This document shows, in pieces, positions 11,156 to 34,906 of a stretch of 64,000 nucleotides of DNA (position 1 is the first letter of the stretch; every line of letters starts with the position of its first letter). Both the position numbers and the translations under genes were made by a program. Where the stretch lies: contig NC_088880.1 of assembly GCF_032884065.1 (NCBI RefSeq), positions 31,585,298 to 31,649,297 of the forward strand, given 5' to 3'. The stretch is from Artemia franciscana. Lineage: Eukaryota; Arthropoda; Branchiopoda; Anostraca; Artemiidae. The notes below the pieces were generated by a model, which searched no databases, had not been told where the DNA came from, and was given only the letters and a program-made list of their open reading frames with translations.

Positions 11156-11840
11156 TCTATACTAGCTGTTGGGGTGGCGCTTCGCGCCACCCCAACACCT
11201 AGTTGGTGGGGCGCTTCGCGCCCCCCCCCCAAGCCCCCCCCCCGTGCACGTAAGTCGTTACGCGCCATATTAGTTACGCGCCATTGTAGTTGTGTCCGTG
11301 TGTCCCACCCGTGAGTAGAGATAGATATAAATATATGTTTTTAACTACGTAAAACATGCGAATATACAACATTCTTCGCTGTCCCATTGTCTGTGCATAG
11401 AAATAGATTTTCAGTTTACTGACTCTTGAACATGCAACATATAATTGTCCATGGGAAAAACAATCCGTATTCAGATCTATACCTCATTATTCTAATGATG
11501 TGTCCCTGTGTCCGGTCGTCATTAATATATCCCGCCTGTGCCCCCGGAGTCCCCGTTGTAGTTGTGTCCCTGTGTCCCAGTCGTCATTTATATTCCCTGT
11601 GTCCTGGTCGTGATTTGTGTCCGGGTGTCCCAGTCTGTAATTTCTCTTTGAGGTTCCCGGTCGTCATTTGTATTCCCTCTGTCTCGGTCGTCATTTGTGT
11701 CCCGGTCTGTAATTTTTCTTTGAGTGTTTTTTCTTTTTAGTTTTTTTTTTTAGTTTTTTACCTTTTTTCTTTTTTCTTTTTCCTCTTTATTTTTCAGCGT
11801 CACTATGAAGTACATTTCCCCGAACCTTTGTTTTTTTACC

Positions 11841-12191
11841 TTAAATCTGGTAGGCTTTGATGACCTTATCCAAGTCAAAATCCCAAACCCAATCATCATC
11901 GCTATCATTTTCAGTTTTGATATGTTTTGACTCTCGCTGTCCATGTTGATTTTCATCTAAATGCGCGGTTTTGCGTTCTTTAGCCGCAAGCCTGTTTTCT
12001 TGCTGTTCTTGAAATTCCTCGGCACGCTCTCTTTTCTTACTTTCTCTATCAGCAGCAAGCCTGTTTTCTTGCTGTTCTTGTGATTCCTCGGCACGCTTTC
12101 TTTTCTTACTCTCTCTATCAGCAGCAAGTTTTTTCGCATAGATTCTTTGAGCAGCTTCCTCGGCTGTTGCCATTGTAGGTTCTTCAGTCAT
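11841..12191 (-). pseudogene. Helitron replicase/helicase N-terminal remnant
   Basis: A 116-residue frame on the minus strand starts MTEEPTMATAEEAAQ. It contains two near-identical 23-residue charged repeats (core AADRESKKRKRAEE, then QEQQENRL) and ends in an acidic segment (NDSDDDWVWDFDLDK). Arginine/glutamate-rich repeats of this style precede the Rep domain in many arthropod Helitron proteins, and I rely on that recollection for the call. The protein stops where normal Rep sequence should follow and runs into T-rich low-complexity DNA. A shorter, broken copy of the same start lies in plus orientation at 12632-12835, where the first 50 bp are duplicated. Function here is unlikely. Confidence 0.5.
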
Positions 12192-12299
12192 TTTACAATT
12201 AAATATTTTTCCGTGAACGAATGTCTTAAATACGTCACCGTCATAACAAACATGACGACAACTAACTTCATGACGTCAGTCGACACACAAACATGACGT

Positions 12300-12309
12300 C
12301 ACTTGACAG

Positions 12310-12341
<32 letters not shown>

Positions 12342-12360
12342 ACACACACACACAGACAAC
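12300..12360. repeat. (CA)n microsatellite inside the Helitron 5' region
   Basis: Runs of ACACAC interrupted by AGAC at 12308-12357. The matching TG-rich stretch occurs at 12490-12508 in the opposite-strand copy. Confidence 0.8.
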
Positions 12361-12381
12361 TTATTTATATATATATATATA

Positions 12382-12467
12382 CTAGCTGTTGGGGTGGCGC
12401 TTCGCGCCACCCAACACCGCACGTAAGTCGCTAGCTTTGTGGCTTCGCACCACACCCCAACAGCTAG
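12382..12467. repeat. Palindrome of two opposed Helitron 3' termini
   Basis: CTAGCTGTTGGGGTGG at the left and the complementary CACCCCAACAGCTAG-like sequence at the right enclose about 55 bp. The left half has its own hairpin (GGTGGCGC-TTC-GCGCCACC) and the right half a diverged one ('TGTGGCTTCGCACCACA'). The left end is a minus-strand and the right end a plus-strand Helitron 3' terminus. Immediately after it, at 12468, a new Helitron 5' end (TCTATATATATA) begins. Confidence 0.65.
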
Positions 12468-13205
12468 TCTATATATATAAAAATAAGTTGTCTGTGTGTG
12501 TGTGTGTCGAGTGACGTCATGTTTGTGTGTCGACTGACGTCATGAAGTTAGTTGTCGTCATGTTTGTTATGACGATGACGTCATTAAAGGTATTTAAGAC
12601 ATTCGTTCACAGAAAAATGTTTAATTGTAAAATGACTGAAGAACCTACAATGGCAACAGCCGAGGAAGCTGCTCAAAAGACAAATTTTTAATTGTAAGAA
12701 GATCGTGGACGGAAAAATGTTTAATTGTAAAATGACTAAAGACCTACAATGGCATCAGCCGAGGAAGCTGCTCAAAGAGTCTATGCCAAAAAACTTGCGG
12801 CTGATAGAGAAAGTAAGAAAAGAAAGCGTGCCGAGGAAAAAATAAAAAAATGAAAAAAAAAAACTGAAAAATAAAGGAGAAAAACAAAACTAAAAAAATA
12901 AAAATAAAAAAAACTAAAAAGGTAAAAACTACAAAAAAAAACTAAAAAGAAACAAAAAAAACTAAAAAAATTAAAACAAAGGTAAAAACAAAAAAAAACT
13001 AAAAAGAAAAAAAGGGGGAAAACACAAAATTTATTTCATCATATACCAATTCAAAAACGAATGTATATACAGACCGGGACACCGGGACACAAATGACGAC
13101 CGGGACACAGGGAATATAAATGACGACTGGGACACAGGGACACAACTACAATGGGGATGCCGGGGGTCACAGGGGGATATATAAATGACAACGGAGACAC
13201 AGAGA

Positions 13206-13265
13206 ATGTTCGATTAACAATCACCATCAACAAAGCTCAAGGCCAATCATTAGAATCAAGAGGTA
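13206..13265 (+). pseudogene. Partial duplicate of the Pif1 helicase motif
   Basis: Reads VRLTITINKAQGQSLESRG, the same stretch as 13560-13613 but followed by A-rich sequence instead of the rest of the domain. Together with the flanking minisatellite it shows that this part of the Helitron was duplicated in tandem. Confidence 0.6.
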
Positions 13266-13559
13266 TAACTAAAAAATACTAAAAAAAAAGGTAAAAAACT
13301 AAAAACTAAAAAAAAGACCAATTCAAAAACGAATGTATATACAGACTGGGACACAAATAACGACCGGGACACCGGGACACAGGGAATATAAATGACGACC
13401 GGGACACTCAAAGAGAAATTACAGACTGGGAAGCCGGGACACAAATGACGACCGGGACACAGGGAATATAAATGACGGCCGGGACACAGGGGCACAACTA
13501 CAACGGGGACGCCGGGGGTCACAGGGGGATATATAAATGACGACGGCAACACAGGGAAT

Positions 13560-13757
13560 GTTCGATTAGCAATCACCATCAACAAAGCTCAAGGGCAATC
13601 ATTAGAATCATGAGGTATTGATCTGAATACGGATTGTTTTTCTCATGGACAATTATATGTTGCATGTTCAAGAGTCGGTAAACCTGACAATCTATTTATA
13701 TGCACAGACAATGGGACAGCAAAGAATGTTGTATATTCGCAAGTTTTACGTAGTTAA
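13560..13757 (+). pseudogene. Helitron Pif1-like helicase, C-terminal remnant
   Basis: Reads ITINKAQGQSLES, one TGA stop at 13611-13613, then GIDLNTDCFSHGQLYVACSR and a tail ending NVVYSQVLRS with a stop at 13755-13757. KAQGQ and YVACSRVG are late helicase motifs of the Pif1/SF1B class, which in Helitron proteins form the C-terminus. The stop replaces what is usually a codon between LES and GID. Everything upstream of KAQGQ (Walker A and B, the Rep domain) is missing and replaced by minisatellite, so this is a relic. It identifies the surrounding element as a Helitron independently of the termini. Confidence 0.8.
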
Positions 13758-13779
13758 AAACATACTACTACTACTACTA

Positions 13780-14926
13780 CTAATAACTCACTGCAGCACC
13801 AAGCCGCCTGAGGCCAACACAGCTACGCACGCTCCTCCTCCAACCTAGTCTATTTAAAGCCTCCCTCTTTACACCCTCCCAGGAAGTTCCCATTTCCTTT
13901 AAATCCTTATTTATGACATCCTCCCAACCCAGACAAGGACGACCTGCTTTCCGTGTAGCCCCAGACGGTTGGCCAAAAAGGACAATCTTCGGTAATCTGT
14001 CATCCTTCATCCGTAGAACGTGGCCTAGCCATCTCAACCTTTCTTTCATTATAGCCCCAGAAAGCGGGATTGAACCACACTTTTCGTACAACCTACTGTT
14101 TGAAATACGGTCAGTCAGCCGGGTACCCAGAACAATCCGTAGGCAATTTCTCTGGAAAACATCTAGTAAATTTTCATCTGCTTTTCGGAGTGTCCATGCT
14201 TCAGAGCCATATTTGACCACTGTCATCACTGTAGCTTCCAATATTCTAATCTTGGTTTGTAGGCTTATCTTTCTATTCTTCCAAACTTTTTTTAACTGTG
14301 AAAAAACACCCTGAGCTTTAGCTATTCTACTTTTAACATCTTCACTGCTCCCACCATCTTTACTAATAATACTACCAAGGTAACTGAAGCTCCCAACCTG
14401 ATCAATCTTTTCGTTACCTAAGGTCACCTGTTCATCTTCACTTATTCCTAACCTTAGTGACTTAGTCTTCTTAACATTAATTTTCAAGCCTATTTTAGCA
14501 CCCTGAACTCGTAAAACCTCTAAAAATTCATTCATTTTGCTCACACTTTCATCTAATATGCTTAAATCATCAGCATAATCTAAGTCCAGGAGCGTTCTTC
14601 CTCCCCATTTGATTCCATGGTCTCCAATTGCCTTTCCTGTGCTCCTTAAGACGAAGTCCATCAAAATGATCCATATAAAGGGGGATAGAACACAACCCTG
14701 CTTAACTCCTGATTTAATACAAAACCACTTGCTAACCTCATTTCCTACCTTAACCGCAGCAGTATTATTCTCGTACATAGCGCAAATCACTTTAATGTAT
14801 TTTTTCGGTATACCATATAACGATAAGACCTTTGTTAACGCTGTTCTATCAACAGAATCGAAAGCTTGCTCATAATCGATAAAACTAAGGACCAAAGGTG
14901 TTTGACAACGAAGGGACTTCTCAATT
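13780..14926 (-). CDS. RTE LINE reverse transcriptase, second part
   Basis: Continuation of the frame interrupted near 14967. It carries the RT catalytic boxes SFIDYEQAFDSVDR, SGVKQGCVLSPFIWI and LDYADDLSIL, with both aspartates of YADD intact. The thumb and C-terminal domain follow (GSFSYLGSIISKDGG, IRILEATVMTVVKYGSEAW, RLRWLGHVLRM, RKAGRPCLGWEDVI). It stops at the border with the (TAG)n tail. The first ATG of this segment (14895) is internal to the RT domain and is not a genuine start; the segment is translated with the upstream one in intact relatives. Confidence 0.85.
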
Positions 14927-14927
14927 A

Positions 14928-16703
14928 TTAACCTAAGAGTGAAAACATGGTCGACACATCCTCTACCTTTCTAAAACCGCATTGTTCTTCCCTTAAAACT
15001 TTATCTACAGCATGTCTTAGTCTAAAAAGTATCATATTACTCAGTAATTTGCTACCTACAGAGACCAGACTAATGCCTCGATAATTCCGACATTCACTCT
15101 TGTCACCTTTCTTATACAGTGGTTTAATTAAGGTTTTCCTAAAATCATTGGGTACTTCCCCTTTTTCAAAAATCATGTTCATAATCTTCAGTAGCTTATT
15201 CCTAACCTCAGAGCCACCATATTTAAGGAACTCATTAATCATACTATCAGCACCTGGGGCCTTATTATTTTTTAATCCTTCTAGTACTGTCGCTAATTCT
15301 TCCTCACTAAACAAATCTTCCTTCACATCCAAGGTATCACAAACTTTTTCATTTTCATCTATATCTTTTCCTGCAACTGTATCTCGGTTTAGCACATTCT
15401 CAAAATGTTCCACCCTTCTTTCTTTAACTTTTTCCTTATCACTAATTGTGACCCCATTTCTATCTTTAACTGGGACTAGTCCGGATCGACTACTCCCTTT
15501 CAATTTATTAACATGCCAGTATAATATTTTACTATTATGCCGTCTAGCCGCATCTTCCAGATCCTCAGCAATTTTATCCATCGCCTCCATTTCACATCTC
15601 CTTAGTTCATATTTTAATGCTTTCTCCACTTTCTTTACATTCCTTTTGTTTTCATACGACCTATCGCTCAGATAATTCTTATACAAACCCCTTCTACTCT
15701 CTATTAAACCTAAAGCTTTTTCACTAATATTCCTAGTTGCTGTCTTAGCACTCTTCCCTAGGACACCATCAGCAACTTCACAAATTGTTTTTCTGAAATT
15801 ATTCCATCCATCTTCCACATTGTCAAATTTTAAACCCTCAAGTTTAGTACTCAACTGTTCCTGGAATTTTTTTCTCAAATTTTCATCCTGAAGTCTACCA
15901 ACATCATAACTTCCCGGGAGGGAGTTACTCTTCCGAAATTTCAGCTTTAAATTAACCTTAGACACTACTAGATGGTGATCTTTACTTTTAACATCAATAA
16001 CGGCACTCCTATACACCCTAGTATCTTGTATTGATCCTGCTAGTCTTCTGTTTACAATAACATAATCAATAAGGTTTCCTGTCTTACCATCACGTGAATA
16101 CCATGTCAACTTATGGGCCATTTTGTGACCAAACACCGTAATGGTTATAACTAGGTTGTTATACCTACAAAATTGCAAAAGTCTATAGCCATTACTGTTT
16201 TCTTTTCCTACACCAAAATTACCTAGGCTAGGATACCATCTATCCCTATTTCTACCAACCTGTGCATTAAAATCTCCTAGCAACAACACAATATTTCTAC
16301 CTGGTACCCTGTCTATTTGCTCCTGTAACTGTAAGTAAAATTCATCTGAGTCACTAGTATCTCCATCAGTTGGTTCAATGGGGGCATATACTACTATAAC
16401 TGATACCCTAAACTTTTTAGTCATAAAATGAGCAATTAGTATTCTATTATTAATACCTTCCCAGCCTAAACAAGACTTAGCAGCTTCCTTATTCATCATG
16501 AGCCCTACTCCCTGTCTATGTACCCCATCCTTCCTTCCTGAGTAAACAAATTCTATGTCACCTAATTTCATGCTTCCTACCCCTGGGATATGAGTTTCTG
16601 AAACTCCTAATAAATCCAGTTCAAACCGTCTGAATTCGTCAGTCAAAATGTCGATGCGATAGTCATTTTTTAACGTCGTAACATTCCAAGTTCCAATTTT
16701 CAT
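14928..16703 (-). CDS. RTE LINE endonuclease plus reverse transcriptase, first part
   Basis: A 591-codon frame starting MKIGTWNVTTLKND. Residues 1-240 are the APE endonuclease, with LLGVSETH, VVYAPIE, LLGDFNAQVGR, WYSRDGKTGNLIDYV and the catalytic SKDHHLV. A basic linker follows, then from about residue 450 the reverse transcriptase begins (KNNKAPGADS, LIKPLYKKGDKSECRNYRGI, EEQCGFRK). The frame shifts after GFRK, near 14966-14968, where one base appears to be missing. Supplying it conceptually leads into GRGCVDHVF, the usual continuation. The start codon is the first in frame and sits right before the GTWN motif, as is common for such proteins. In arthropod annotations such frames are often mislabelled 'craniofacial development protein 2-like'. 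Confidence 0.85.
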   Translation of the reverse strand: MKIGTWNVTTLKNDYRIDILTDEFRRFELDLLGVSETHIPGVGSMKLGDIEFVYSGRKDGVHRQGVGLMMNKEAAKSCLGWEGINNRILIAHFMTKKFRVSVIVVYAPIEPTDGDTSDSDEFYLQLQEQIDRVPGRNIVLLLGDFNAQVGRNRDRWYPSLGNFGVGKENSNGYRLLQFCRYNNLVITITVFGHKMAHKLTWYSRDGKTGNLIDYVIVNRRLAGSIQDTRVYRSAVIDVKSKDHHLVVSKVNLKLKFRKSNSLPGSYDVGRLQDENLRKKFQEQLSTKLEGLKFDNVEDGWNNFRKTICEVADGVLGKSAKTATRNISEKALGLIESRRGLYKNYLSDRSYENKRNVKKVEKALKYELRRCEMEAMDKIAEDLEDAARRHNSKILYWHVNKLKGSSRSGLVPVKDRNGVTISDKEKVKERRVEHFENVLNRDTVAGKDIDENEKVCDTLDVKEDLFSEEELATVLEGLKNNKAPGADSMINEFLKYGGSEVRNKLLKIMNMIFEKGEVPNDFRKTLIKPLYKKGDKSECRNYRGISLVSVGSKLLSNMILFRLRHAVDKVLREEQCGFRKVEDVSTMFSLLG

Positions 16704-17565
16704 GTTCTTTAAATCTTTGAAATTATTTTGGCCTCAAGAAAAGCAGTGATCCCGGATACCAGTGCAGGATGGGGACCAACATATCTTCTCAAGTCTACAC
16801 CGAAGCGCTTAAGCCGGCTTAGAACCGGACAGCAAGAAGTCCCTGGGACCTCCAGTAAGTTGGAGGCTTTGTGCAATCCTGGGCCCATCTTGGTCACAAC
16901 ATGGTTTTCAGCACTTGGCGATGCTCTTCTATCAACAAGAGTCGAAATCCTGCACAGACAGTCCCAAGCCTATTACCTCCGACTCATTATATATTCATGC
17001 CTACAAATATTATGCTACTACGGGGAGGCAGCCAATAGTAGATAAATTAGCTAGGAAGAGGTTTTTCAGCCCGAAAACGCCCATCAAAACAAACCAAGCC
17101 CAGAAAATTATCCAATAATCAGAATCCCGTACGAGTGCTGTGTTGTTTACTAGGCTATAATTTCCTCGAGGGGCGCCACTCCTCAAGTGGGAAAAATTGA
17201 CCGCAAGTTTCCCAATCTTGCAGGTACCCCGAAAGGGTCGAGGCAGCCCTTTACAGAGGCCGTTGTCCATAAATCTGGATCTTACGCCCTGCCGCAGTTG
17301 TCCTCCTATAGAGGATCCTCCCACGATGGTGTTCTGCTTCACCATGCAATTTAACCCTTTACTGGGAGAAGGTTTGTAACTCATCTGACGCGTGAACACG
17401 GCAGTTGGCCCTGCTGAGTGTACATTTGAGGGGCCTTCTTCCTCCTCCACCTGAAATTATGACCCCCAGGGGAGGGTTTCCCAGTTTCTATTATGGGCCC
17501 CACTGGGACAAGGTCCTACTTGGCCTAAGCCTCCTATGGAGCTACTCTACCTATCTATAGGGCTT
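16704..17565 (-). other. RTE LINE 5' leader
   Basis: Shared almost base for base with 48042-48602 at the second copy, so it belongs to the element. It contains minus-strand open frames of 62 codons (16709-16897) and 146 codons (17010-17450). I recognise no ORF1 domain, such as a zinc knuckle or coiled coil, in them. Promoter activity is expected here for an RTE element but no motif proves it. Confidence 0.5.
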
Positions 17566-17567
17566 AC

Positions 17568-17576
<9 letters not shown>

Positions 17577-17648
<72 letters not shown>

Positions 17649-17712
17649 CATATACATACACACATACATATACACATACACACATATACACATACATACA
17701 CATATACTCACT
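17577..17712. repeat. (TA)n then (CATA)n microsatellite
   Basis: About 65 bp of uninterrupted TA followed by CATA/CACATA repeats. It abuts the presumed 5' end of the RTE LINE and may be the insertion target. The open frame of repeated I and Y codons here is an artefact. Confidence 0.9.
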
Positions 17713-17717
17713 AACGT

Positions 17718-17865
17718 GCAAATATATACCCTGAATTGGTATAGGCTAGGTCTGTATATGGTGAATATTAATTTCCTTTCTGATGCAAATGCACAATAAC
17801 TTTGGATTCAGGATGCAATTCTGACTATAGAGATAAGTATTTTTCTTACTTGAAGTGTATGTGCA
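17718..17865. repeat. Fragment related to the foldback repeat at 59985-60240
   Basis: Contains 'CCTGAATTGGTATAGGCTA' and 'GGATTCAGGATGCAATTCTG', similar to 'TGGATTCAGGGTGCAATTTT' near 60100. A diverged and probably partial copy of the same repeat, lying between the microsatellite and the satellite array. Confidence 0.4.
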
Positions 17866-19188
17866 GAATTAGAAATTCTGTTGGTACTACAAAAGTAGAC
17901 CTAAGCAGCCAATTTAGCCTGTCTGAAACATCTCACAAGCCAACACCTTATAAAAAACACCTTTGATAATTTAAATGAATAAGAAAACTTATTAGAAATT
18001 CTGCTGATACTGCAAAAGTAGACCTAAGTAGCCAATTTAGCCTTTTTGAAACATCTCACAAGCCAACACCCTATAGAAAACACCTTTGAGAATTTAAATG
18101 AAGAAGAAAACTTATTAGAGACTCTGCTAATACTGCAAAATTAGACCTAAGTATCCAATTTAGCCTGTTTGAAACATCTCACAAGCCAACACCCTATAGA
18201 AAACACCTTTGACAATTTAAATGAATAAGAAAACTAGTTAAAAACTCTGCTAATACTGCAAAAGTAGACCTAAGTAGCCAATTTAGCCTGTTTGAAGCAT
18301 CTCACAAGCCGACACCCTATAGAAAAACACCTTTGACAATTTAAATGAATAAGAAAACTAGTTAAAAACTCTGCTAATACTGCAAAAGTAGACCTAAGTA
18401 TCCAATTTAGCCTGTTTGAAACATCTCACAAGCCAACACCCTATAGAAAACACCTTTGACAATTTAAATGAATAAGAAAACTAGTTAAAAACTCTGCTAA
18501 TACTGCAAAAGTAGACCTAAGTATCCAATTTAGCCTGATTGAAACATCTCACAAGCCAACACCCTATAGAAAACACCTTTGACAATTTAAATGAATAAGA
18601 AAACTAGTTAAAAACTCTGCTAATACTGCAAAAGTAGACCTAAGTAGCCAATTTAGCCTGTTTGAAGCATCTCACAAGCCGACACCCTATAGAAAAACAC
18701 CTTTGACAATTTAAATGAATAAGAAAACTAGTTAAAAACTCTGCTAATACTGCAAAAGTAGACCTAAGTATCCAATTTAGCCTGTTTGAAACATCTCACA
18801 AGCGAACACCCTATAGAAAAACACCTTTGACAATTTAAATGAATAAGAAAACTAGCTAAAAACTCTGCTAATACTGCAAAAGTAGACCTAAGTAGCCAAT
18901 TTAGCCTGTTTGAAACATCTCACAAGCCAACACCCTATAGAAAACACCTTTGACAATTTAAATGAATAAGAAAACTAGTTAAAAACTCTGCTAATACTGC
19001 AAAGGTAGACCTAAGTATCCAATTTAGCCTGTTTGAAACATCTCACAAGCCAACACCCTATAGAAAACACCTTTGACAATTTAAATGAATAAGAAAACTA
19101 GTTAAAAACTCTGCTAATACTGCAAAAGTAGACCTAAGTATCCAATTTAGCCTGTTTGAAACATCTCACAAGCCAACACCCTATAGAA
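17866..19188. repeat. 123 bp satellite array, about 11 copies
   Basis: The landmark 'AAAAACTCTGCTAATACTGC' recurs at 18241, 18364, 18487, 18610, 18734, 18858, 18981 and 19104, a period of 123-124 bp. The first three units (from 17866) are more diverged. Units 18241/18610 and 18364/18734 share private variants ('GAAGCATCTCACAAGCCGAC'), suggesting a 369 bp higher-order repeat. The array ends abruptly inside a unit at about 19188, where the Helitron tail resumes. Confidence 0.9.
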
Positions 19189-19560
<372 letters not shown>

Positions 19561-19708: not shown

Positions 19709-20661
19709 TTATTTTGTAGCATGAATTCTTTGATGAGCAGCTACGAGGGATTTTTGACGAAATACTGTCTGACATACGTCACATTTGAAAGGTTTATCTT
19801 TAGTATAAGTTCTTTCATGATCAGATAGACTTGATTTAAGACTGAATGTTTTTTTGCATATGTCACATTTGAAAGGTTTCTCCCCAGTATGAGTTCTTTG
19901 ATGAATAGATAGATTGTATTTTACACTGAATGTTTTAACGCACATGTCACATTTGAATGGTTTTTCTCCAGTATGAGTTCTCTGATGTGAAAATAGGTTT
20001 GATTTATGATTGAACATTTTTTCGCATATGTCACACTTGAAAGGCTTTTCTCCGGTGTGAGTTCTTTGATGTAAAGATAGGTCGGATTTCCAACCGAATG
20101 TTTTATCGCACGTGTTGCATTGGAAAAGATTTTCTCCAGTGTGACTTTTTCGATGATAAGTTAGTTGGGATTTCTGACTGAACATTTTTTCGCATATGTC
20201 ACATTTGTAAGGTTTTTCTCCAGTATGCGTTCTTTGATGAACAATTAAATCAGAATTTCTAGAAAAACACTTCCTGCAAATATCACATTTGAATGGTTTT
20301 TCTCCAGTATGATTTCTCTGATGTGAAAATAGGTTCGATTTATGATTGAACATTTTTTCGCATATGTCACACTTGAAAGGCTTTTCTCCGGTGTGAATTC
20401 TTTGATGTGAAGATAGGTCGAATTTCCAACCGAATTTTTTATCGCACGTGTTGCGTTGGAAAAGTTTTTCTCCAGTGTGACTTTTTCGATGATAAGTTAG
20501 TTGGGATTTCTGACTGAACATTTTTTCGCATATGTCACATTTGTAAGGTTTTTCTCCAGTATGCGTTCTTTGATGAACAATTAAACCAGAATTTGTAGAA
20601 AAACACTTCCTGCAAATATCACATTCAAAAGGTTTTTTCACAGTGTGGCTTCGTGGGATAT
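19709..20661 (-). CDS. C2H2 zinc-finger protein, last exon (11 fingers)
   Basis: The acceptor 'TCCATCCTTGCAG' precedes the exon at 20661, which enters in phase 1 and reads DIPRSHTVKKPFECDIC. This phase fits the donors of both exon 3 copies. It encodes eleven C2H2 units at 28-residue spacing with TGEKPF/Y linkers, ending HQRIHATK before TAA (19709-19711). Such proteins bind DNA as nuclear transcription regulators; the target is unknown. Fingers 1-4 and 5-8 are near-identical blocks offset by 112 residues, an internal duplication. Finger 3 has Arg for its first Cys (FQRNTC; its twin, finger 7, has FQCNTC) and finger 10 ends DHERTY instead of His, so nine fingers keep all four ligands. An open frame continues upstream to an ATG at 20704, but that lies in the intron and is not favoured. 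Confidence 0.85.
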
Positions 20662-22369
20662 CTGCAAGGATGGAAACGGAAATAATGTAAAGTTCACTCA
20701 ACATAAATTACTTTTTATTGGACACTTAATTCCATTTTTAACACTTAACCTTCATTATTCACTATATATTTAGTTTTAATGAATTTTGCCTTCGGGGTCA
20801 AATTTTAACGGGTAATTTGAGGTATTATTCTCGTGATTCAACGAATCCTTCATTTATTATTTTAGATAAAGAGCAGAACAAGCTATTTTTTGGCAAATAT
20901 ATTCTCAGTTTTAAAACCTTAAACTTGTAATGTAATTGAAATTCTTAAGCTTGAGGTTGTGCATGTGTTTACTTAAACGTGAGTTTATTTTTCAAAAAAA
21001 AAATTTCTACAGTGTGGTATCCAGGAACTGAATTTATTCAGTACTGACTGAGTGACTAATTTATTTGTAAACTACATATTAATAAGCAGCAGTTAAATCA
21101 ACCATCAAGGGAGGGCAACAATGCGTGTGATAAAAGAATGCTGCAATCCTTTGACTCCCAGCCAATTACTCCTTCATTAAATGTCAATGATAAGGAGTAA
21201 AAGAACTGGCTTAAAAAAAGAACTTCAGGGCTTGCTTCCTCCATGACAAGCATGTCAACCACATACAATCCACAGATGTAATACGATCTAGATGGAGAGC
21301 ATACTTTGTGAATAAACTAAATTCGACCATTCTTCCTTACTCAACTGGGACATCCAGTTTGTCCCTGATCCCTAGTGTATTCACTTACTGTCTGAATTAG
21401 CCAAGGTATTGCCCTGGGGACATGAAACTATGTACATGACATATCTTTTATGACTAAAATATCAACAAGATAGAAACCTTTCCACTAAAATGTATATTTG
21501 AATCCTTCGTTTTAAATTAGTTAAATACATGAATGTTAAATACTTGATGTGCTAGCTTGGCCCTAGGTGCTGCACTAATCAAGTCCTCCCTACAGACACA
21601 TTTTCAGATATTTCAAACCTTCAAACCAATGCGCCTGATAAAAGATAGCTGCTATCTTTTGACTTTCAACAAATTATTCATTAATTTAAAACAAAATGAA
21701 TGTACTCCCACTATACCTTTTTCATAAAGAAAATCTACTAATAAACTACGTTTCTTCATTCAAAAAAACACTTTTTTTATTTACTTTTAAATAAAAAGAT
21801 GCACTCAGCTCCCGGAATACTACTGATACAATAAATTTCGGCTCGGTAATCATGAATCTGTCAAAAGATAAGCACTCTCAAACGCTTGAAACAAAATACC
21901 TTTTCATTAAAGCCATCAACATAATCTTGTAACAATGGAATTATTTTACTATGTATTACTTGGTGTATTATTCTTGTCATTTTGCAAAACCTTCAAAAAA
22001 GCTGGTCTAAAAAATACTAAACAACTTTTACAAACATCTACATCCTTGCACCAGAAACAAAAGAAAATATCTAATATTTTTCAAAAAAAAAGATGAAATG
22101 AGTTTGAAAAGTTAGAAGAGAGTTGCAAATAAAGGTATGTCTGTCGTTTTGTTCATGGATTTATTTGGGATATAAAATTTAATATCCTAATAACTAAAAC
22201 TATCCGAGACGTTTGGAAACTAAATGTTTATTTGACAAATGTAACCGGCATGACAATATGCAGCCAGCATGTAACTTTGATGCCCCGCCACAATATGAAA
22301 GGAAGTGATATGCCTTATTATTTTGGACACCCAAATATACACAAGAAGCTCAATATACTTGAAAAATAC
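20662..22369 (-). other. Zinc-finger gene intron 3
   Basis: Noncoding sequence between the exon 3A donor and the finger exon acceptor. It contains two diverged similar stretches about 500 bp apart (near 21120 and 21628, both with GATAAAAGA then a CTTTTGACT-type run). No other feature was recognised. Confidence 0.55.
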
Positions 22370-22528
22370 CTTTGTCCTCGCCACTTTGTGACTCCACTTT
22401 AAGATGACCAGAACTGGGTTTGCAATCTGCAGATATGCCAGAAGAGCCAGCCAAAAGATTGTATTCGTGTTTCATTGAAAATAAAGGGAAAATATGTTTA
22501 TCGTCGTTTGTTGATTCGTCTTTAGGTT
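22370..22528 (-). CDS. Zinc-finger gene exon 3, proximal copy (3A)
   Basis: 159 bp, 53 codons, phase 1 at both ends. The acceptor is 'GCAACTTTCCTAG' and the donor 'GACAAAG|GTATTTTTC'. It reads EPKDESTNDDKHIFPLFSMK and ends HLKVESQSGEDK. The stretch is acidic with no known fold. HLKVES fits the SUMO-acceptor consensus (hydrophobic-K-x-E), common in the N-terminal regions of finger proteins. Its protein sequence is identical to the distal copy at 24826-24984. It would join directly to the finger exon. Confidence 0.75.
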
Positions 22529-23299
22529 CTAGGAAAGTTGCAATAAAAATCACATATAAATTCTCATATTAAACAAGTTTGTTACTTAAATAGTGAATAA
22601 TGAATTGCGTCACTTAAAAAGTTTTAAAAAAAAACCATTTAGAGAGAAAACAAGTCATTTCTGACAAATTGGTTTCTTAGAACTCAGGTGACATCGGTGA
22701 TTGGCACAGATGGCGACTTTTATTTCGGTTTATTTTAATGGCAAAAGTTTATAGTAAGAAAAAATTTAAGAGAAATTTCAAAAAGAGTGGCATAGGAATA
22801 GAAAGACCACCATTTGGAATCACCATAGTCGATATTCTTTAACGTAGGCTTTCAGCTCCTCATGAATGATTAAAGTAGCAATTTAACTGAGCTATTGGCA
22901 CAATTAACAGCCAAACAACCGCTCACAACTACAGAAACCGAAGAATAACTACTCATTTAGCACTTAACTGAAACTAGCACCATCCATCTCAAAAGGAGTT
23001 TTGAAATATAATTCCGATTAAAACATCAAGTCTAAAACTCCAGATAGATACGATTTTAATACTAATTTATGTTGGTATTGCTCCATCTGTACAAAAAAAC
23101 AAAAACAAACAAAATTCAATTTTAACGGATTAAAAAAAATCAAATACGATTTTAGCTGGTTAAAAGACATAGTTTGTTATACATATTTTTTTATTAATTG
23201 TTTTTTTTTACCACATGCTATTCTCAGACTGAAGACAACGATCTTTGTCGTGCTAAAAGTTCAGCTCGATTATAGTAATAAATTTTGAGTTATATTTTG

Positions 23300-23400
23300 A
23301 AATATAGTCGGATCCCAGAAGTAACGTTCCAGAAGCAACCAGAAGGAAGAAGAAGAAGAGGCAGGCGGCGCAATACGCTGAGGCGCACCTATCAGACGTT
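23300..23400 (+). repeat. Segment present only in duplication unit A
   Basis: Unit B lacks about 100 bp found here. On the plus strand the segment reads PEGRRRRGRRRNTLRRTY, an arginine-rich motif resembling the C-terminal tail of some non-LTR retrotransposon proteins (PEGKRKRGRPxxTWRRT in many animals, from memory). It could be a short LINE-derived insertion in A or a deletion in B. Confidence 0.35.
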
Positions 23401-24167
23401 CAAATTTACTACTGCAGTGATTTTTGTTTTAAAAAAGAGGTTTAATAATTCCAATGAAGAGGCTACCAGCGACGCGATATAAGACCGTAATAGAAGCTAA
23501 ACAATTGACATCACCATCGTTGGAAATCCTATACTGGGTACTTGCAATCCCCCACCTTCATCAACAAGGTAAATTATTGTTTTCCTTGTGTTTACTAGTG
23601 CTTTGGGGACAAATAATCCTGCTTGTGTTATGTAGATAATCAAAATTATATATTAAAAGTAACGAAATGATAACTTTAGAAAATTTCGTGAGAGCTTTAT
23701 AAATTTTCCTTTAATTATCTCTTTTTTCTCTTCTTTATGTTCTCTTCTACTATTTTAAGAATTTCATCAATGCAATAAATCACTTTACGATTCTTTGACT
23801 AAGTTTGATGTTAATAGTATGTGTATATTAACTGTCATCAATAAAACCACGTGTGATAGAGTTTAAAAAAACATATTTCTATTATTGTTGGCATCCTGCT
23901 CACAGTTTATACTGTTTGGCATAAAACAGTAGATTGTATAGAACATTTTTAGAATGATAGAAAAGGATTTAAACTAGACCAAAAAGTTTGCCATTTGAAT
24001 TTTTTTTCAAGAGAATCAACTTTGGGAAAAAAATGATTATCACAGCCATTGACTTCATGACCATCCAATAAAATTCCTTTTCAGTTCTACTGCATTTTCT
24101 AAGGCTGCTCAAAATGTAATATTCTATTGTGACCTGCAAACATACGAATAAATATGGAAAAGCATAC

Positions 24168-24338
24168 CACTGTCCTCGTTAACATTTAGCTCCTGTTTCA
24201 GGGGGTCACAATTGGGCTTGAGCTTGGTTGATAGGTCTTGAAAACAATTCAAAACATCACTACCCTCCATAGGTAATGAAATAAGATCAGTAAAACCAAA
24301 CAGACTTTTGTGATCATTTGGTTGAGGATCTTCAAGTT
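24168..24338 (-). CDS. Zinc-finger gene exon 2, proximal copy (2A)
   Basis: 171 bp, 57 codons, phase 1 at both ends. The acceptor is a poly-T tract ending TTTTTTTTTAG, and the donor is 'GACAGTG|GTATGC'. It reads ELEDPQPNDHKSLFGF, then LPMEGSDVLNCFQDL, and ends PLKQELNVNEDS. Joined to exon 1 the junction becomes AVKQELEDP, a SUMO-consensus site typical of finger-protein N-termini, which supports the splice. LKQE near the end is a second such site. It differs from the distal copy at a few residues (DVL versus DLL, LKP versus LEP, NED versus NVD). Confidence 0.75.
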
Positions 24339-24728
24339 CTAAAAAAAAATTATAGAAAATTTAGTTTAGAAATCTTAGGACAATGATTTAATGGTAACCA
24401 AAGACACTTTTAATACCCAAAAAAGTTTTGCAGCGTTTTTGGCTTTGTCATTGCACAATCAAACATTATAAGATATAAAACTATAAGTAAAGCAGAAAGC
24501 AACTCATACCAGGAGTAAACAGAACAAAAACCCCCGTCCGTCGTTCGCAACTAAATATAGGTGTACAATGCCGTCGTTGGAACATGATTGATAAGTTTTA
24601 CAATTTGTTTTGTGTATTTGTCTAATGAAAGTACAAGAAAATAAATGGAATATTGTATTACTCCTAAATTTTAGATAAAGTAGTAGAATCTAAAACAGAT
24701 GGGCTTAATCAGCTGCAAAATCAATTAC

Positions 24729-24771
24729 CTTGCTTCACAGCAGCAATTCCAAAGACGTTGAGACTGTCCAT
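24729..24771 (-). CDS. Zinc-finger gene exon 1, proximal copy (1A)
   Basis: Coding part of 43 bp: MDSLNVFGIAAVKQ plus one base, with donor 'AAGCAAG|GTAATTGA'. It is identical in protein to exon 1B. Its upstream similarity to unit B ends about 20 bp before the ATG, where sequence derived from the intron after exon 3B begins. It therefore lacks the original promoter and 5' UTR. Unless a new promoter has arisen it may be skipped, since a first exon has no splice acceptor. Confidence 0.6.
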
Positions 24772-24825
24772 CCTTCAATAATTGGGTCAATAATATTATT
24801 ATTCAATAAGTTAATTCAATAATAC

Positions 24826-24984
24826 CTTTGTCTTCGCCACTTTGTGACTCCACTTTAAGATGACCAGAACTGGGTTTGCAATCTGCAGATATGCCAGAAG
24901 AGCCAGCCAAAAGATTGTATTCGTGTTTCATTGAAAATAAAGGGAAAATATGTTTATCGTCGTTTGTTGATTCGTCTTTAGGTT
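24826..24984 (-). CDS. Zinc-finger gene exon 3, distal copy (3B)
   Basis: Same 53 codons as exon 3A, with acceptor 'GCAACTTTCCTAG' and donor 'GACAAAG|GTATTATTG'. The donor sits at the duplication border, so only its first few bases are ancestral. The exon is symmetric (phase 1/1) and can be followed in frame by exon 2A or by the finger exon. Confidence 0.75.
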
Positions 24985-26549
24985 CTAGGAAAGTTGCAAT
25001 AAAAATCACATATAAATTCTCATATTAAACAAGTTTGTTACTTAAATAGTGAATAATGAATTGTGTCACTTAAAAAGTTTAAAAAAAAAACATTTAGAGA
25101 GAAAACAAGTCATTTCTGACAAATTGGTTTCTTAGAACTCAGATGACATCGGTGATTGGCACAGATGGCGACTTTTATTTCGGTTTATTTTAATGGCAAA
25201 AGTTTATAGTAAGAAAAAATTTAAGAGAAATTTCAAAAAGAGTGGCATATGAATAGAAAGACCACCATTTGGAATCACCATAGTCGATTCAGCTCCTCGT
25301 AGCTCCATTAACGTAGGCTTTCAGCTCCTCATGAATGATTAAAGTAGCAATTTAACTGAGCTATTGGCACAATTAACAGCCAAATAACCGCTCACAACTA
25401 CAGAAACCGAAGAATAACTACTCATTTAGCAATTAAGTGAAACTAGCACCATCCATCTCAAAAGGAGTTTTGAAATATAATTCAGATTAAAACATCAAGT
25501 CTAAAACTCCAGATAGATACGATTTTAATACTAATTTATGTTGGGATTGCTCCAGCTGTACAAAGAACAAAAACAAACAAAATTCAATTTTAACTGATTA
25601 AAAAAAATCAAATACGATTTTAGCTGGTTAAAAGACAGAGTTTGTTATACATATTTTTTTATTAATTGTTTTTTTTTTTTTTACCAGATGCTATTCTCAG
25701 ACTGAAGACAACGATCTTTGTCGTGCTAAAAGTTCAGCTCGATTATAGTAATAAATTTTGAGTTATATTTTGAAACATCTTTTTAAATTTACTACTGCAG
25801 TGATTTTTGTTTTAAAAAATAGGTTTAATAATTCCAATGAAGAGGCTACCGGCGACGCGATATAAGACCGTAATAGAAGTTAAACAATTGACATCACCAT
25901 CGTTGGAAATCCTATACTGGGTACTTGCAATCCCCCACCTTCATCAACAAGGTAAATTATTGTTTTCCTTGTGTTTACTAGTACTTTGGGGACAAATAAT
26001 CCTGCTTGTGTTATGTAGATAATCAAAATTATATATTAAAAGTAACGAAATGATAACTTTAGAAAATTTCGTGAGAGCTTTATAAATTTTCCTTTAATTA
26101 TCTCTTTTTTCTCTTCTTTATGTTCTCTTCTACTATTTTAAGAATTTCATCAATGCAATAAATCACTTTACGATTCTTTGACTAAGTTTGATGTTAATAG
26201 TATGTGTATATTAACTGTTATCAATAAAACCACGTGTGATAGAGTTTAAAAAAACATATTTCTATTATTGTTGGCATCCTGCTTACAGTTTAATCTGTTT
26301 GGCGAAAACAATAGATTGTATAGAACATTTTTAGAATGATAGAAAAGGATTTAAACTAGACCAAAAAGTTTGCCATTTGAATTTTTTTTCAAGAGAATCA
26401 ACTTTGGGAAAAAAATGATTATCACAGCCATTGACTTCATGACCATCCAATAAAATTCTTTTTCAGTTCTACTGCATTTTCTAAGGCTGCTCAAAATTTA
26501 ATATTCTATTGTGGCCTGCAAACATACGAATAAATATGGAAAAGCATAC

Positions 26550-26720
26550 CACTGTCCACGTTAACATTTAGCTCCTGTTTCAGGGGGTCACAATTGGGCT
26601 CGAGCTTGGTTGATAGGTCTTGAAAACAATTCAAAAGATCACTACCCTCCATAGGTAATGAAATAAGATCAGTAAAACCAAACAGACTTTTGTGATCATT
26701 TGGTTGAGGATCTTCAAGTT
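26550..26720 (-). CDS. Zinc-finger gene exon 2, distal copy (2B)
   Basis: 171 bp, phase 1/1, with the same splice signals as exon 2A (donor 'GACAGTG|GTATGC'). It reads ELEDPQPNDHKSLFGF and ends LKQELNVNVDS. Slight amino-acid differences from 2A show that the two copies have begun to drift while both remain open. Confidence 0.75.
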
Positions 26721-27110
26721 CTAAAAAAAAATTATAGAAAATTTAGTTTAGAAATCTTAGGACAATGATTTAATGGTAACCAAAGACACTTTTAATACCC
26801 AAAAAAGTTTTGCAGCGTTTTTGACTTTGTCATTGCACAATCAAACATTATAAGATATAAAACTATAAGTAAAGCAGAAAGCAACTCATACCAGGAGTAA
26901 ACAGAACAAAAACCCCCGTCCGTCGTTCGCAACTAAATATAGGTTTACAATGCCGTCGTTGGAACATGATTGATAGGTTTTACAATTTGTTTTGTGTATT
27001 TGTCTAATGAAAGTACAAGAAAATAAATGGAATATTGTATTACTCCTAAATTTTAGATAAAGTAGCAGAATCTAAAACAGATGGGCTTAATCAGCCGCAA
27101 AATCAAATAC

Positions 27111-27153
27111 CTTGCTTCACAGCAGCAATTCCAAAGACGTTGAGACTGTCCAT
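27111..27153 (-). CDS. Zinc-finger gene exon 1, distal copy (1B)
   Basis: ATG at 27151-27153, reading MDSLNVFGIAAVKQ and ending in phase 1 with donor 'AAGCAAG|GTATTTGA'. This is the copy with unduplicated upstream sequence, so the native promoter should lie above 27153. No TATA box is obvious. A transcript could run 1B-2B-3B-(2A-3A)-finger exon; all inner exons are phase 1, so inclusion or skipping of either pair keeps the frame. Confidence 0.7.
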
Positions 27154-27173
27154 CCTTCAATAATTGAGTCAAA

Positions 27174-27709
27174 TACACGGTCAGCTTCACTTCGTAGCTC
27201 TGGACAATTAAGAATCTGAACAATCTACAAATTTGATAGCCTTATCTTCAAAGAGTACAAGGAGAACCTAACCTAGAAGAATTTTTTTAGAAACAGGTAA
27301 AACCAAAAGAGATAAATGGATTTCAAAATTCAGAACCCAGAACCAAAAACACTGTAATACAAATCTATGATTCGTAGAAAAGTAAAGTCTTTTCAGAAGC
27401 AATGCTCGAGCGTTGTCCATAGTAAAAGTCATAATACTTTAATAAATTTTTATTATTATCTTTTTCCCAGACCGGCTTTATATTGAGGCGCTGGTTGTCT
27501 AAGGTTGACAGGGAACTAATCCGATTGCCAATAAAAAAAAATTTAGTACCATTTCTAAGGAACAAACATGAATGGAGGTCAACCAGTCCTGTCCAATGCC
27601 CTTTTTACCCGCATTCTTAATAAGGATATCTTACTCAAATTTTAGGTAATTGTTCAATATAGTCTAAAGATCAAACAATCATAAGGGACTCCTTAAAAAA
27701 TAAGGACTC
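27174..27709. other. Upstream region of the zinc-finger gene
   Basis: Presumed 5' UTR and promoter region of the minus-strand finger gene. No core promoter motif stands out. The 66-codon minus-strand frame at 27365-27565 has no supporting features. Confidence 0.4.
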
Positions 27710-30466: not shown

Positions 30467-33400
30467 CTTGTGAGAAGTCCCTTTCTATTATTTATTTATT
30501 GCTTTATATTATATTCTATAATATAACATACACTATGCGCCATAGCTATACGACATTTAATTATACGACAGGCTGACATCCTCAAATTCTTGTTTACCCA
30601 TTATTTACCAGTTTTATTTTTAGACGGGTAACCTTCACCTACGATCAAGTTCAACAGGCTGACACCTTCAAACCCTTGTTTACCCATTTTTATTTGTCTG
30701 CCCGTATTTACTTTGAGCGTTAGATAAACTTCAACCTATAGTCAAACTCAAAGCTTTAATTTATTACAAAACCGGACCGGAGAGGGCGACCCTTAAAAGC
30801 AAATGTTAGAACAATATTTTGGGAGTTCTGATTCACAATGTCTGGACGACAGATAGATATAACAACCCTGCTACTTTTATTTGGTTTATCTACTTTCCTC
30901 TTGGATCACCATTCTTTCCTTGGATACCAGCTTTTCAATTAATACGAGGGACAGCCTGTCGTGTGTATTTACAAGATTTAACGTAAGTTTTTTTTATTTC
31001 CAGATTCATACTTCTTCCCCATGGGCAAGCAAGAACTTTTCATCTACCAGAAAGAACTCTCCGCTTCAGCTTCTCCCCACTTTATATTTCTTTTACCTGT
31101 TTTTTTACACACTCCTTCTAAAATAAAATTCCTAGTTTGGAGAAATTGTGACTTATAATAGGCCTTAGGAAACAGATAGACTGTTGCCATAGTAGATAGA
31201 AAAGTGAACCTATTCGCACGTTGAATACTAGTGACACGCAACCATAATTCAAAGCACTAGTATTCGCTTACTCACCCCATAGGGTGGAACCTTACAAAGT
31301 GGTGGCCAGCGGTGTTCTTTTCTGCTCTATGATGGCATTCCTACTGTTTTTTATCTACTTTTTCAATTGATTTTTCCCCTACTACAATTTTTTTCTTCGC
31401 CCGAGTCGGCTCGTTTTTAGCAAGGGAGATTCCCATATTCCTCCCATATATCATCTACCTATATTAACAGCCCCATATTCATCTATAAGCTAGAATTTTC
31501 TTGTCTATACACTAACGTACTAGTTTCACCAAGTCCGATAAATTTTTTTCTCATTAATTCATGAGTTTAGTCTCTTTAAATTATCCATAGGTCATTTTTA
31601 TTTTTTTACATTATCTTTACTGTCTGTAACATCAATAGGTTTTTATTGACTCATACTAAAATTAACACAGCATATCTGTCTCCAAATAAATTTTATTGCT
31701 TCTTGTAAAGATTTACGATGTCCACCGGAAATTCAAGTGACCCGACAAATATCCCAGATAATTCTCAATCAGCCTATCAACAGGTCCCTTCTCAAATAAC
31801 CCATCAGATGGTATTTGACCCTTTTTTACACATTCAAACTTTAACAAAACCATTGGAAGTAAAGATTTGGATAAGACAACATAAAAGCATGAAGGCTACT
31901 CTAAAATGGGACGATGATTATACTTTAGATATGGCGTCAAACACCTGTAGAGGAATTTTCCACCGGTATGTGGACGAAATAATTGAGTCGGGAAATACTT
32001 TTACGCTCCAACATACCTTATAGCGATTATATTATAGCGATGTTGAGTTAACCATTAATAATAATAAAAGAATAAGATTAGGGAAATCAAAATGAGAGGA
32101 TGCATGTCTATGTCGATGTAACAGCTGAAATTTAGGTAGGTTTTTTTTTAACACCCGGGGTCAATTTGTCACAAACATACAAACCCCCTCCCCCCAAACT
32201 TCCTGGGTATTTAAATTAAAAGCATGCTTATGAAAATGATACCCCAACTCATGCTGCGCCCAGGGATCACTGTACCCCCTTCCTTAGCTACGCCATCGCA
32301 TACGAATGCGTCAAGTTGTTTTTGTAATCTTTGAAATTGAGATATTAATATATTTTTATCTTGTTTTTTGGTCCTTCGAACTTTCTATGAAATAAAAGAT
32401 GCCACTCGGTTGTAATTCGCTTCGGGGCTTGGTTTTTCCCCTCCTAAAAATCTATTAATGCAATATTAGTTTTTTAACTGTTGAACGAAAGTGGATGCAG
32501 GCAAGGTCAAACTTGAAGGAAGGAAAATTGGAGAAAAAGAACTCTAGGGGAGAGAAAGTTGAAGGAAAGTCAGAACAAGAAGTTTAGGGGATGGAAATTT
32601 TGCTACCCTCTGCGTGTACATCGTTTGAGTCTTAAATAAAAAAAGAAAGAATAAATATTAAAATTTAAAAATAGAAATGTAATTTTTATTCGATTCAAAC
32701 TGTTTTCTACAATACAGATGCCACTTGGCTGTGGTTACTCCACTGGCTTATTAAAAGATGCCAATCGGCTAAGGTAATTCAAAAGATGGTATGTCTCAGC
32801 ATAAGTTTTGAAGAGAGGGAAGACTGGTAGAAAAATTTATTTATTTTTCACTTTATCGGACCAATTATTTCACACAGGTTATTTCAAACACGACATAAAT
32901 CTTCAATTACTATGTGTTTCGGTTGTACGGTTTGTTTTCCGAACCTGAACTACGATTGTTAACTACTGTTATGTGAACCACAATTCATACGATGATTCTG
33001 ACAGGGCCTTGGTGTCAAAGGTTTGCTACTTTGTCAGCAAGTCAATTGTCATGTTGTCAGACAGAAACATAAAATGGCTCTGCATTAAGGGGAAGCTCAA
33101 CCCAGTTGACTACTGTTATGTGAACCACAATTCATACGATGATTCTGACAGGGCCTTGGTGTCAAAGGTTTGCTACTTTGTCAGCAAGTCAATTGTCATG
33201 TTGTCAGACAGAAACATAAAATGGCTCCGCATTAAGGGGAAGCTCAACCCAGTTGACTACTGTTATGTGAACCACAATTCATACGATGATTCTGACAGGG
33301 CCTTGGTGTCAAAGGTTTGCTACTTTGTCAGCAAGTCAATTGTCATGTTGTCAGACAGAAACATAAAATGGCTCTGCATTAAGGGGAAGCTCAACCCAGT

Positions 33401-34906
33401 TGATGTATTAAGCCGACCACCAAACAACACGCCTCTTCAAACTCGAGCTTTCTCACTCGCGGATAAAGAAGTGGTTTTTTGTTGCAGTGACAGTACAGAC
33501 AGAATCACCGACAATGAATTCAACTTCGCCGAAAGGAAGTTTGGACTTTCTAGGTTTGGAAGTTTTAAAAGATTAGAAAGTACCAGATTGACGACTTAGA
33601 ATTAACACCAATTTTAAGCTTAATGCTTCAGAACGGGACAAATGATTACGCGAAATTTGGATTTAGTAGCACAAAAATGGGGATGCCCTGCAAAGACAGG
33701 AAGATCGGGACGCCGGGATGAGATTTAATGAAGACAGAAATGGCAAAAATAGCCATATTACAGTTAGTCCACAGGACCATGACTCCCTAGGAGAGGCTGC
33801 TAGTCTCCAAGACCAGCCTAATTATATTGATACTTCGGAAAGAAATGAGAATTTGAATGATATGAAAGGAAATGAATCTATATTTATAGATCCACAAATG
33901 AATCCAGGAAAGCTTGATAAGCTACTGGAAAAGTGGAATATTGTGCCATGGCTGCAGAAGGAAGTTGACAGGCTCATTTTGTGGGAGAGGATCTTGTATC
34001 GGATGCCGCCACCGGAAGAAGACAGAAAATCAAATGCGCAAATTTTACAACTAATGATTCCTAGGTGCCTGATTTCTGGTGTTTTACAGCTGTCGCATTC
34101 ACATGTCCTCATGGCCGCCCACCATAACGCGGAAAGAAGCCTAGACAAACTAAGAAATTTCTGCTATTTTGACAAAATGTCGACACTTATGAAAAATGAG
34201 GCTCAGAATTGCCATATTTGCATGCGTAGAAATATTACCCCCAAAGTTGTGCCCGAGCTACAAAAAAATATCTTCACTGAAATAAGCTTTGAAACGTGAT
34301 GTTTGGACACTTTAGGTCCTTTGCCTTTGTCTGGAGGCAACAAATATGTCGTTGTCTGCGTAGATGTCTGTACTTCCTTAGTTGTCTTAGAACCCGTACC
34401 TAATGTTACTTCAGAGACTATTGTAAATTTTTACTGCGTCGCGTTATTTCTTTTTTGGAATGTTTCGTTTTCTATTGACAGATTGTCACGCGGCTTTCCG
34501 CTTAAGTCTTTTCAAACGACTTATGAGTTCTTTGAAGGTGAAAAAACTCTTCACCAGCCATCGGGGTCCTTCCACGAATGGAACAGCAGAGAACAAGGTC
34601 AAACTTCTTAACCCCTCCTCTGGATACGGCCTTGGCTAATGGTGTTTGACGTGCTTAAATAGGATCGATGTTATTGTTTTGCTATTAAATGCCATTATTA
34701 TAGGTTCTGCACAAGGTGGAAATTGCTTTTTCTAATTTCAATAATCACATTGTAAGACTGAGGGGTAGGAGCACTTGATGCTAAAATAAAAATCAATAAA
34801 AAAAAGTATTTTTAAAATCTCTAACTGCTGATGAAGCTAACTTCAGTTTAGGTCAGAACAATTTTGGTGTGGGATGCGTTCTTTTATATAGGTATCATTG
34901 TATGGA
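30467..34906 (+). mobile_element. LTR-retrotransposon fossil, Ty3/gypsy-like, broken
   Basis: Recognisable parts in order are a leader region (30467-31700) that may hold a degraded 5' LTR and primer region, a gag-like start (31718-32023), and a gap filled by unrelated repeat (about 32040-32960). Then come the tail of an RNase H domain ending in NPVDVLSRPP, and an integrase zinc-binding region with the start of the integrase core (33718-34611; CHICM, DTLGPLPLSGG, VVVCVDVCT). Most of the pol centre is absent. No matching 3' LTR was recognised. It is old and clearly inactive, with multiple breaks. It lies between two copies of one LINE family. Ty3/gypsy is favoured over BEL/Pao by the integrase style, with moderate confidence. 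Confidence 0.6.
32962..33402 (+). repeat. 147 bp unit repeated three times inside the LTR fossil
   Basis: Units start at 32962, 33109 and 33256, a period of exactly 147 bp (49 codons), and are almost identical. The unit encodes part of the RNase H region. The near-identity means this amplification is much younger than the decay of the element around it. Confidence 0.9.

Follow-up and report, generated by a model that had tools for sequence, protein, structure and literature searches.

The Drosophila gene hydra is said to have nine alternative first exons, which were amplified within one recently evolved gene. The locus described here shares with hydra the multiplication of a first exon, but it differs in that the use of alternative first exons is not supported for it.

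More generally, tandemly duplicated exons occur in about 10% of animal genes, according to a 2002 study cited in PMC9013439, and the passages on tandem exon duplication in PMC9013439 emphasize mutually exclusive choice. As in the duplications treated in those passages, a genomic tandem copy of part of a gene has doubled exons at our locus. In contrast to them, the copied part comprises three exons, including the one with the start codon, and leaves the upstream region out, and a mutually exclusive use of the copies is not supported for our locus. Multi-exon 5' cassettes in tandem before shared downstream exons are also found in the sDscam genes of Chelicerata, where, according to the relevant passages of PMC4835542, each cassette is generally preceded by one promoter. 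The ZF271-like/APEZ genes of Hemiptera are described in a section of PMC6444547 as clustered paralogues of varying exon structure, with disrupted members and no other domain. Our gene likewise encodes many C2H2 fingers with a pentapeptide linker and a finger array without any other domain, and its leader has no Pfam match; this is a resemblance by description. A three-exon leader such as ours, in contrast, does not appear in the description given in that section of PMC6444547. Our literature search, which was not made by species, yielded no description that we recognized of either the leader or its duplication, which could still be in print.

The window, that is, the whole stretch of 64,000 nucleotides that was analysed, lies on contig NC_088880.1 (here C18) of the 1.27-Gb assembly of Artemia franciscana. 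Its relevant features, from 5' to 3' along the gene, are:

27154..27340, minus strand: shared leader and proximal sequence 5' of exon 1B, 187 bp, not present at 1A beyond position -19
27172-24821, minus strand: unit B, with exons 1B, 2B and 3B
27111..27153, minus strand: exon 1B, the first coding exon, 14 codons plus 1 nt, with ATG and donor GTATTT
26550..26720, minus strand: exon 2B, 171 nt, phase 1-1, acceptor ttttttttag, donor gtatgc
24826..24984, minus strand: exon 3B, 159 nt, phase 1-1, acceptor ttcctag, donor gtatta
24791..24820, minus strand: junction filler of about 30 bp between B and A, with no counterpart at either homologous flank on C13
24790-22365, minus strand: unit A, with exons 1A, 2A and 3A
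24729..24771, minus strand: exon 1A, the copy of the first exon, with 19 bp of native leader and no good upstream acceptor
24168..24338, minus strand: exon 2A, with three amino-acid changes specific to unit A (L>V, E>K, V>E)
23306..23400, minus strand: dispersed element of ~90 bp in intron 2 of unit A only, absent from B and C13
22370..22528, minus strand: exon 3A, encoding the same protein as 3B
19709..20661, minus strand: shared terminal finger exon, 11 finger repeats, open frame, stop TAA

Units A and B are direct repeats placed head to tail, each with an exon 1 (43 nt), an exon 2 (171 nt) and an exon 3 (159 nt). The sequence-only reading had described two tandem units with exons 1-3 before one shared finger exon, and its coordinates prove correct to a few bases. 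The homologous exon copies are adjacent and on one strand, as expected of a tandem exon duplication, and would be carried by a single shared transcript. The units have the same 43 nt in exon 1, 3 differences in the 171 nt of exon 2 and 1 in the 159 nt of exon 3. At the protein level, exons 1 and 3 do not differ and exon 2 differs by three residues, in line with the reading of identical or nearly identical products. The acceptors of 2A and 3A equal those of 2B and 3B over the 25 nt compared, and GT donors follow all three exons of each unit. All internal junctions are in phase 1, and the seven exon orders tried each remain open as far as a single final stop, so the exon pairs can indeed be combined in frame. 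The exon boundaries recur elsewhere in the genome: the exon 1 copy on C13 is a 100% match to 1B over 43 nt, and the edges of 16 exon-2 matches coincide with the exon 2 edges within 2 nt (40 of 56 candidates scored). In the 2421 columns of their alignment, A and B are separated by six indels, each of which falls in intron 2 by position. The largest is the ~90-bp element of A, which 11 other places in the genome match by itself.

We consider a genuine tandem duplication of ~2.4 kb on the C18 lineage the best explanation, with a predicted doubled leader in a 551-aa protein and a near-neutral extra copy (probability roughly 60%). The duplicated stretch would begin 19 bp before the first ATG and end after the first 5 bp of intron 3, and the breakpoint would have been sealed by the ~30 bp of filler, as in end joining. 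Transcription would start only upstream of 1B. Exon 1A, which has no good 3' splice site, would be removed inside a 487-nt intron, and 2A and 3A, with the same acceptors as 2B and 3B, would be included by default, yielding a 551-aa protein that contains the leader module twice. Splicing could skip the exons of unit A, and the extra copy is probably near-neutral rather than under selection. This is an ordinary tandem exon duplication, a known kind of change in a fast-changing family, and adaptive regulation is unsupported.

The age of the duplication can be judged from a paralogous block on C13 that has one unit only. The leader unit and its flanks on C13 are ~94-96% identical to the window over long pieces, and intron 3 with the finger exon is 92-93% identical. 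The block covers positions 5875-37026 of the window and C13:6013907-6029568; window stretches at about 11156-19363 and 30469-34904 are missing from the C13 block. Another gene pair (C13 at 5.97 Mb, C18 at 31.56 Mb), with an alignment at ~95%, is probably part of this block.

Divergence was counted over the 2338 sites that have letters in A, B and C13. A and B differ at 58 of these (2.5%, K2P 0.025) and have near-equal branches, with 72 differences between A and C13 (0.032) and 76 between B and C13 (0.033). When the sites are rooted on copy 1 from C8, 15 derived sites are shared by A and B, 2 by B and C13, and 1 by A and C13. The corresponding counts are 12, 0 and 0 with C294 as root and 15, 1 and 1 with C96. 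In a tree of 11 copies, A and B are sisters with a support of 0.998 (FastTree) and an ultrafast bootstrap of 100 (IQ-TREE). With A and B as sisters and C13 as outgroup, the duplication postdates the split between C13 and C18. The single-copy C13 locus and the tree thus back the earlier claim that the tandem duplication is recent. The rooted sites and the tree disfavour the idea that C13 lost one of two older units. With a neutral rate near 3e-9 per site and generation, the divergence of A and B would be of the order of four million generations, only a guess.

Allelic copies would give an identical topology, so the tree alone does not distinguish a duplication from an assembly artefact in which the two alleles of a single unit have been placed one after the other. 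The two sister sequences differ by 2.5%, which is possible between alleles in a very diverse species. Moreover, the insertion in one unit could be heterozygous, and the junction is found on no other contig. The structure of the junction, however, speaks against an artefact. After exon 3B come GTATT of intron 3, the filler and the 19 bp that precede the ATG of 1A; there is no N gap. The filler resembles neither intron 3 nor the upstream region of C13, and a search of the window with 29 of its bases (24792-24820, at most 3 mismatches) found no second match beside itself. A 211-bp query across the junction matched the assembly at full length only once, at this locus, and the other 31 matches covered one side only. 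Furthermore, the 5' homology of A ends 19 bp before the ATG and does not run into the allelic upstream sequence. A join of alleles by overlap is not expected to create such filler, and hence we regard an artefact as highly improbable. The false duplication of alleles against which the sequence-only reading had cautioned is thereby made unlikely, given the filler of ~30 bp and a junction unique in the assembly. We also considered the flanks as template for the filler. The p values were marginal (0.03-0.04 under a local Markov model, 0.05-0.09 with shuffles), and therefore we do not claim such templating.

The upstream regions were compared in an alignment of eight exon 1 copies, each with at most 300 bp of 5' sequence. 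The 187-bp upstream region is alignable in six of the eight (B, C13, C13b, C18b, C96 and C20a), the exceptions being A and C294. Within these 187 bp before the ATG, B shares 184 of 187 positions with C13 and about 80-88% (150 to 164 of 187) with C13b, C18b, C96 and C20a. Further upstream, B aligns poorly with all other copies. The leader of A matches that of B at 18 of the 19 positions adjoining the ATG, and then only at chance-like levels (15/41, 30/57 and 27/57). Hence, exon 1A has indeed lost its native upstream sequence about 20 bp before the ATG, as had been noted. The exon 1 of C294 breaks at ~20 to 25 bp before its ATG, near the breakpoint of 1A (16/19, then 6/26), and upstream of this break lies a CT repeat ending in TTTTAG.

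Exon 1A still has an ATG and a donor, and its frame stays open as far as the fingers. Conceivably, unit A could therefore act under a new promoter of its own as one of two alternative 5' cassettes, with alternative leaders as in chelicerate sDscam. Yet, in contrast to the sDscam cassettes as presented in those passages of PMC4835542, unit A, judged by its sequence, lacks the upstream region common to six of the eight copies. In addition, only 54 nt separate 3B from 1A, and an alternative leader would bring little because 1A encodes the same 14 residues. We consider this arrangement very unlikely. The suggestion of a new promoter at 1A has no positive support, since the upstream region common to the other copies is missing from A. 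Inclusion of 1A as an internal exon after 3B was also rejected. Four AGs lie between the donor of 3B and the donor of 1A; splicing to any of three ends in a premature stop, and the fourth, at the end of 1A, would eliminate this exon altogether. With no good acceptor, 1A is probably spliced out within the 487-nt intron from 3B to 2A.

We return to the genuine duplication and its predicted product. The likeliest transcript would be 1B-2B-3B-2A-3A-finger, with 1A skipped, which predicts 551 aa instead of the 441 aa of the single form. As far as can be told from the exons, the doubled N-terminal region is the most economical prediction. Some indication of splicing might have come from retrocopies, and we queried the genome with the spliced leader. 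None of the 45 matches (40 of 56 candidates scored) extends more than 4 nt across any exon join, so no processed leader copy is seen among them, and this line of evidence was dropped.

The 125-aa leader matched 0 Pfam families at E values up to 1. It contains three [VIL]KxE motifs, which is above shuffle expectation (p 0.0003); the SUMO-consensus character that had been attributed to the leader holds as a statement about sequence motifs. The finger exon matches Pfam zf-C2H2 and zf-H2C2_2, and its linkers are mostly TGEKP. One of its repeats is without the first Cys and another has Tyr in place of the last His. Positions 19833-20637 have an internal period of 336 bp (four fingers), with 2.4 copies and 90% matches. 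BolA (PF01722) and DUF7128 also exceeded the cut-off in the whole protein. We read both as spurious: they fall on finger residues, and no single stretch passes for BolA.

Selection on the two units was assessed from the private changes in their exons, polarised with C13. Unit A has three nonsynonymous and zero synonymous changes, all in exon 2A (L>V, E>K in the motif LEPN, and V>E), and unit B has zero nonsynonymous changes and one synonymous change, in exon 3. The E of LEPN is kept in all the 15 other copies read (B, C13, C294, three on C8, C13b, C18b, C96 and six on C20). In unit A, exons (3/371) and introns (22/1967) changed at about equal rates (p 0.79). In unit B, exons (1/371) changed more slowly than introns (28/1967; p 0.07), with small counts. 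Exon length was set at 371, not 373, in this comparison, and the counts were tallied by hand from the alignment and the exon comparison. Across the family, dN/dS ranged from 0.23 to 0.84 in exon 3 and from 0.47 to 1.08 in exon 2, with a value of 1.59 for A-C13; these ranges omit pairs lacking synonymous or nonsynonymous changes. Constraint on the leader across the family is modest at best, and the evidence leans to relaxed constraint on unit A, with few changes. The intact frames of both units are weak evidence, because zero indels in 373 coding nt have a chance of about 0.32 under no constraint.

These results give some weight to a related explanation, in which unit A would be a silent passenger, with 2A and 3A omitted in splicing or transcripts containing them lost, so that the 441-aa form alone would count. 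The private changes of 2A all alter amino acids, one of them at the widely kept E of LEPN, and on C8 the second exon 2 has a frameshift. However, 2A and 3A have intact splice sites at both ends, with acceptors equal to those of 2B and 3B. A silent passenger is a serious alternative, and yet clearly the less probable one. The proposal that the locus is a natural experiment in finger-protein regulation does not find support, because unit A leans towards relaxed constraint and the comparable duplication on C8 includes a decayed leader copy.

The genome contains at least 16 exon-2 matches and at least 20 exon-3 matches (40 of 56 candidates scored). We read 13 loci, nine of which have one exon 2 and one exon 3. 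C294 has an exon 2 without an exon 3 in the 19.8 kb read. More than one leader copy is present at three of the 13: the window, C8, and C18 at 31.557-31.559 Mb, the last with an additional partial exon 3. At C8:43648822-43660801, three exon 2-3 pairs lie in tandem units of 3.77 kb that are 97-98% alike; the sequence up to 43668700 yielded no exon 1. It is the middle exon 2 that carries the frameshift, and the finger exons there are broken by stops or frame changes. This tripling of exons 2-3 is independent of the duplication in the window. It could be taken to mean that exons 2-3 form a modular cassette whose copy number has been raised repeatedly (2 in the window, 3 on C8) and which sets the dosage of repression like a knob. 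If true, the number of acidic regulatory modules with SUMO sites would vary between one and three among the finger proteins, but we find this idea hardly probable.

The finger exon of C13 also changes frame, which could also stem from an indel error in the assembly. Further finger exons were seen downstream on C13 and C8; they are interrupted or short. A genome search with the finger exon gave 2351 first-look candidates, and among the 125 scored the next best match, on C20, is 68% identical and has an open frame. The C2H2 family is thus large and includes broken members; in its clustered genes, varying exon structure and disrupted copies it resembles the hemipteran ZF271/APEZ expansions.

The duplication offers a rooted case of partial gene duplication, in which coding exons were copied without their upstream region and a single-copy sister locus serves as control. 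If both modules are translated, one could test whether doubling of the leader alters a finger protein. Otherwise, the locus is a record of exon rearrangement in this C2H2 gene family.

Several minor observations concern the assembly and the neighbourhood of the gene. Many of the 75 genome matches to COX1 lie on contigs of chromosome size, a sign that mitochondrial DNA may have numerous copies in the nucleus. Contig C6468 (15,822 bases) may be the mitogenome; ARAGORN, run with the bacterial code, found no tRNA in its first 4500 bases. Just downstream of the finger exon, at 17885-19189, lies a tandem array with a period of 123 bp and 10.6 copies. Another tandem repeat, of 147 bp in 3 copies at 32958-33403, is in frame within a 208-aa open frame.
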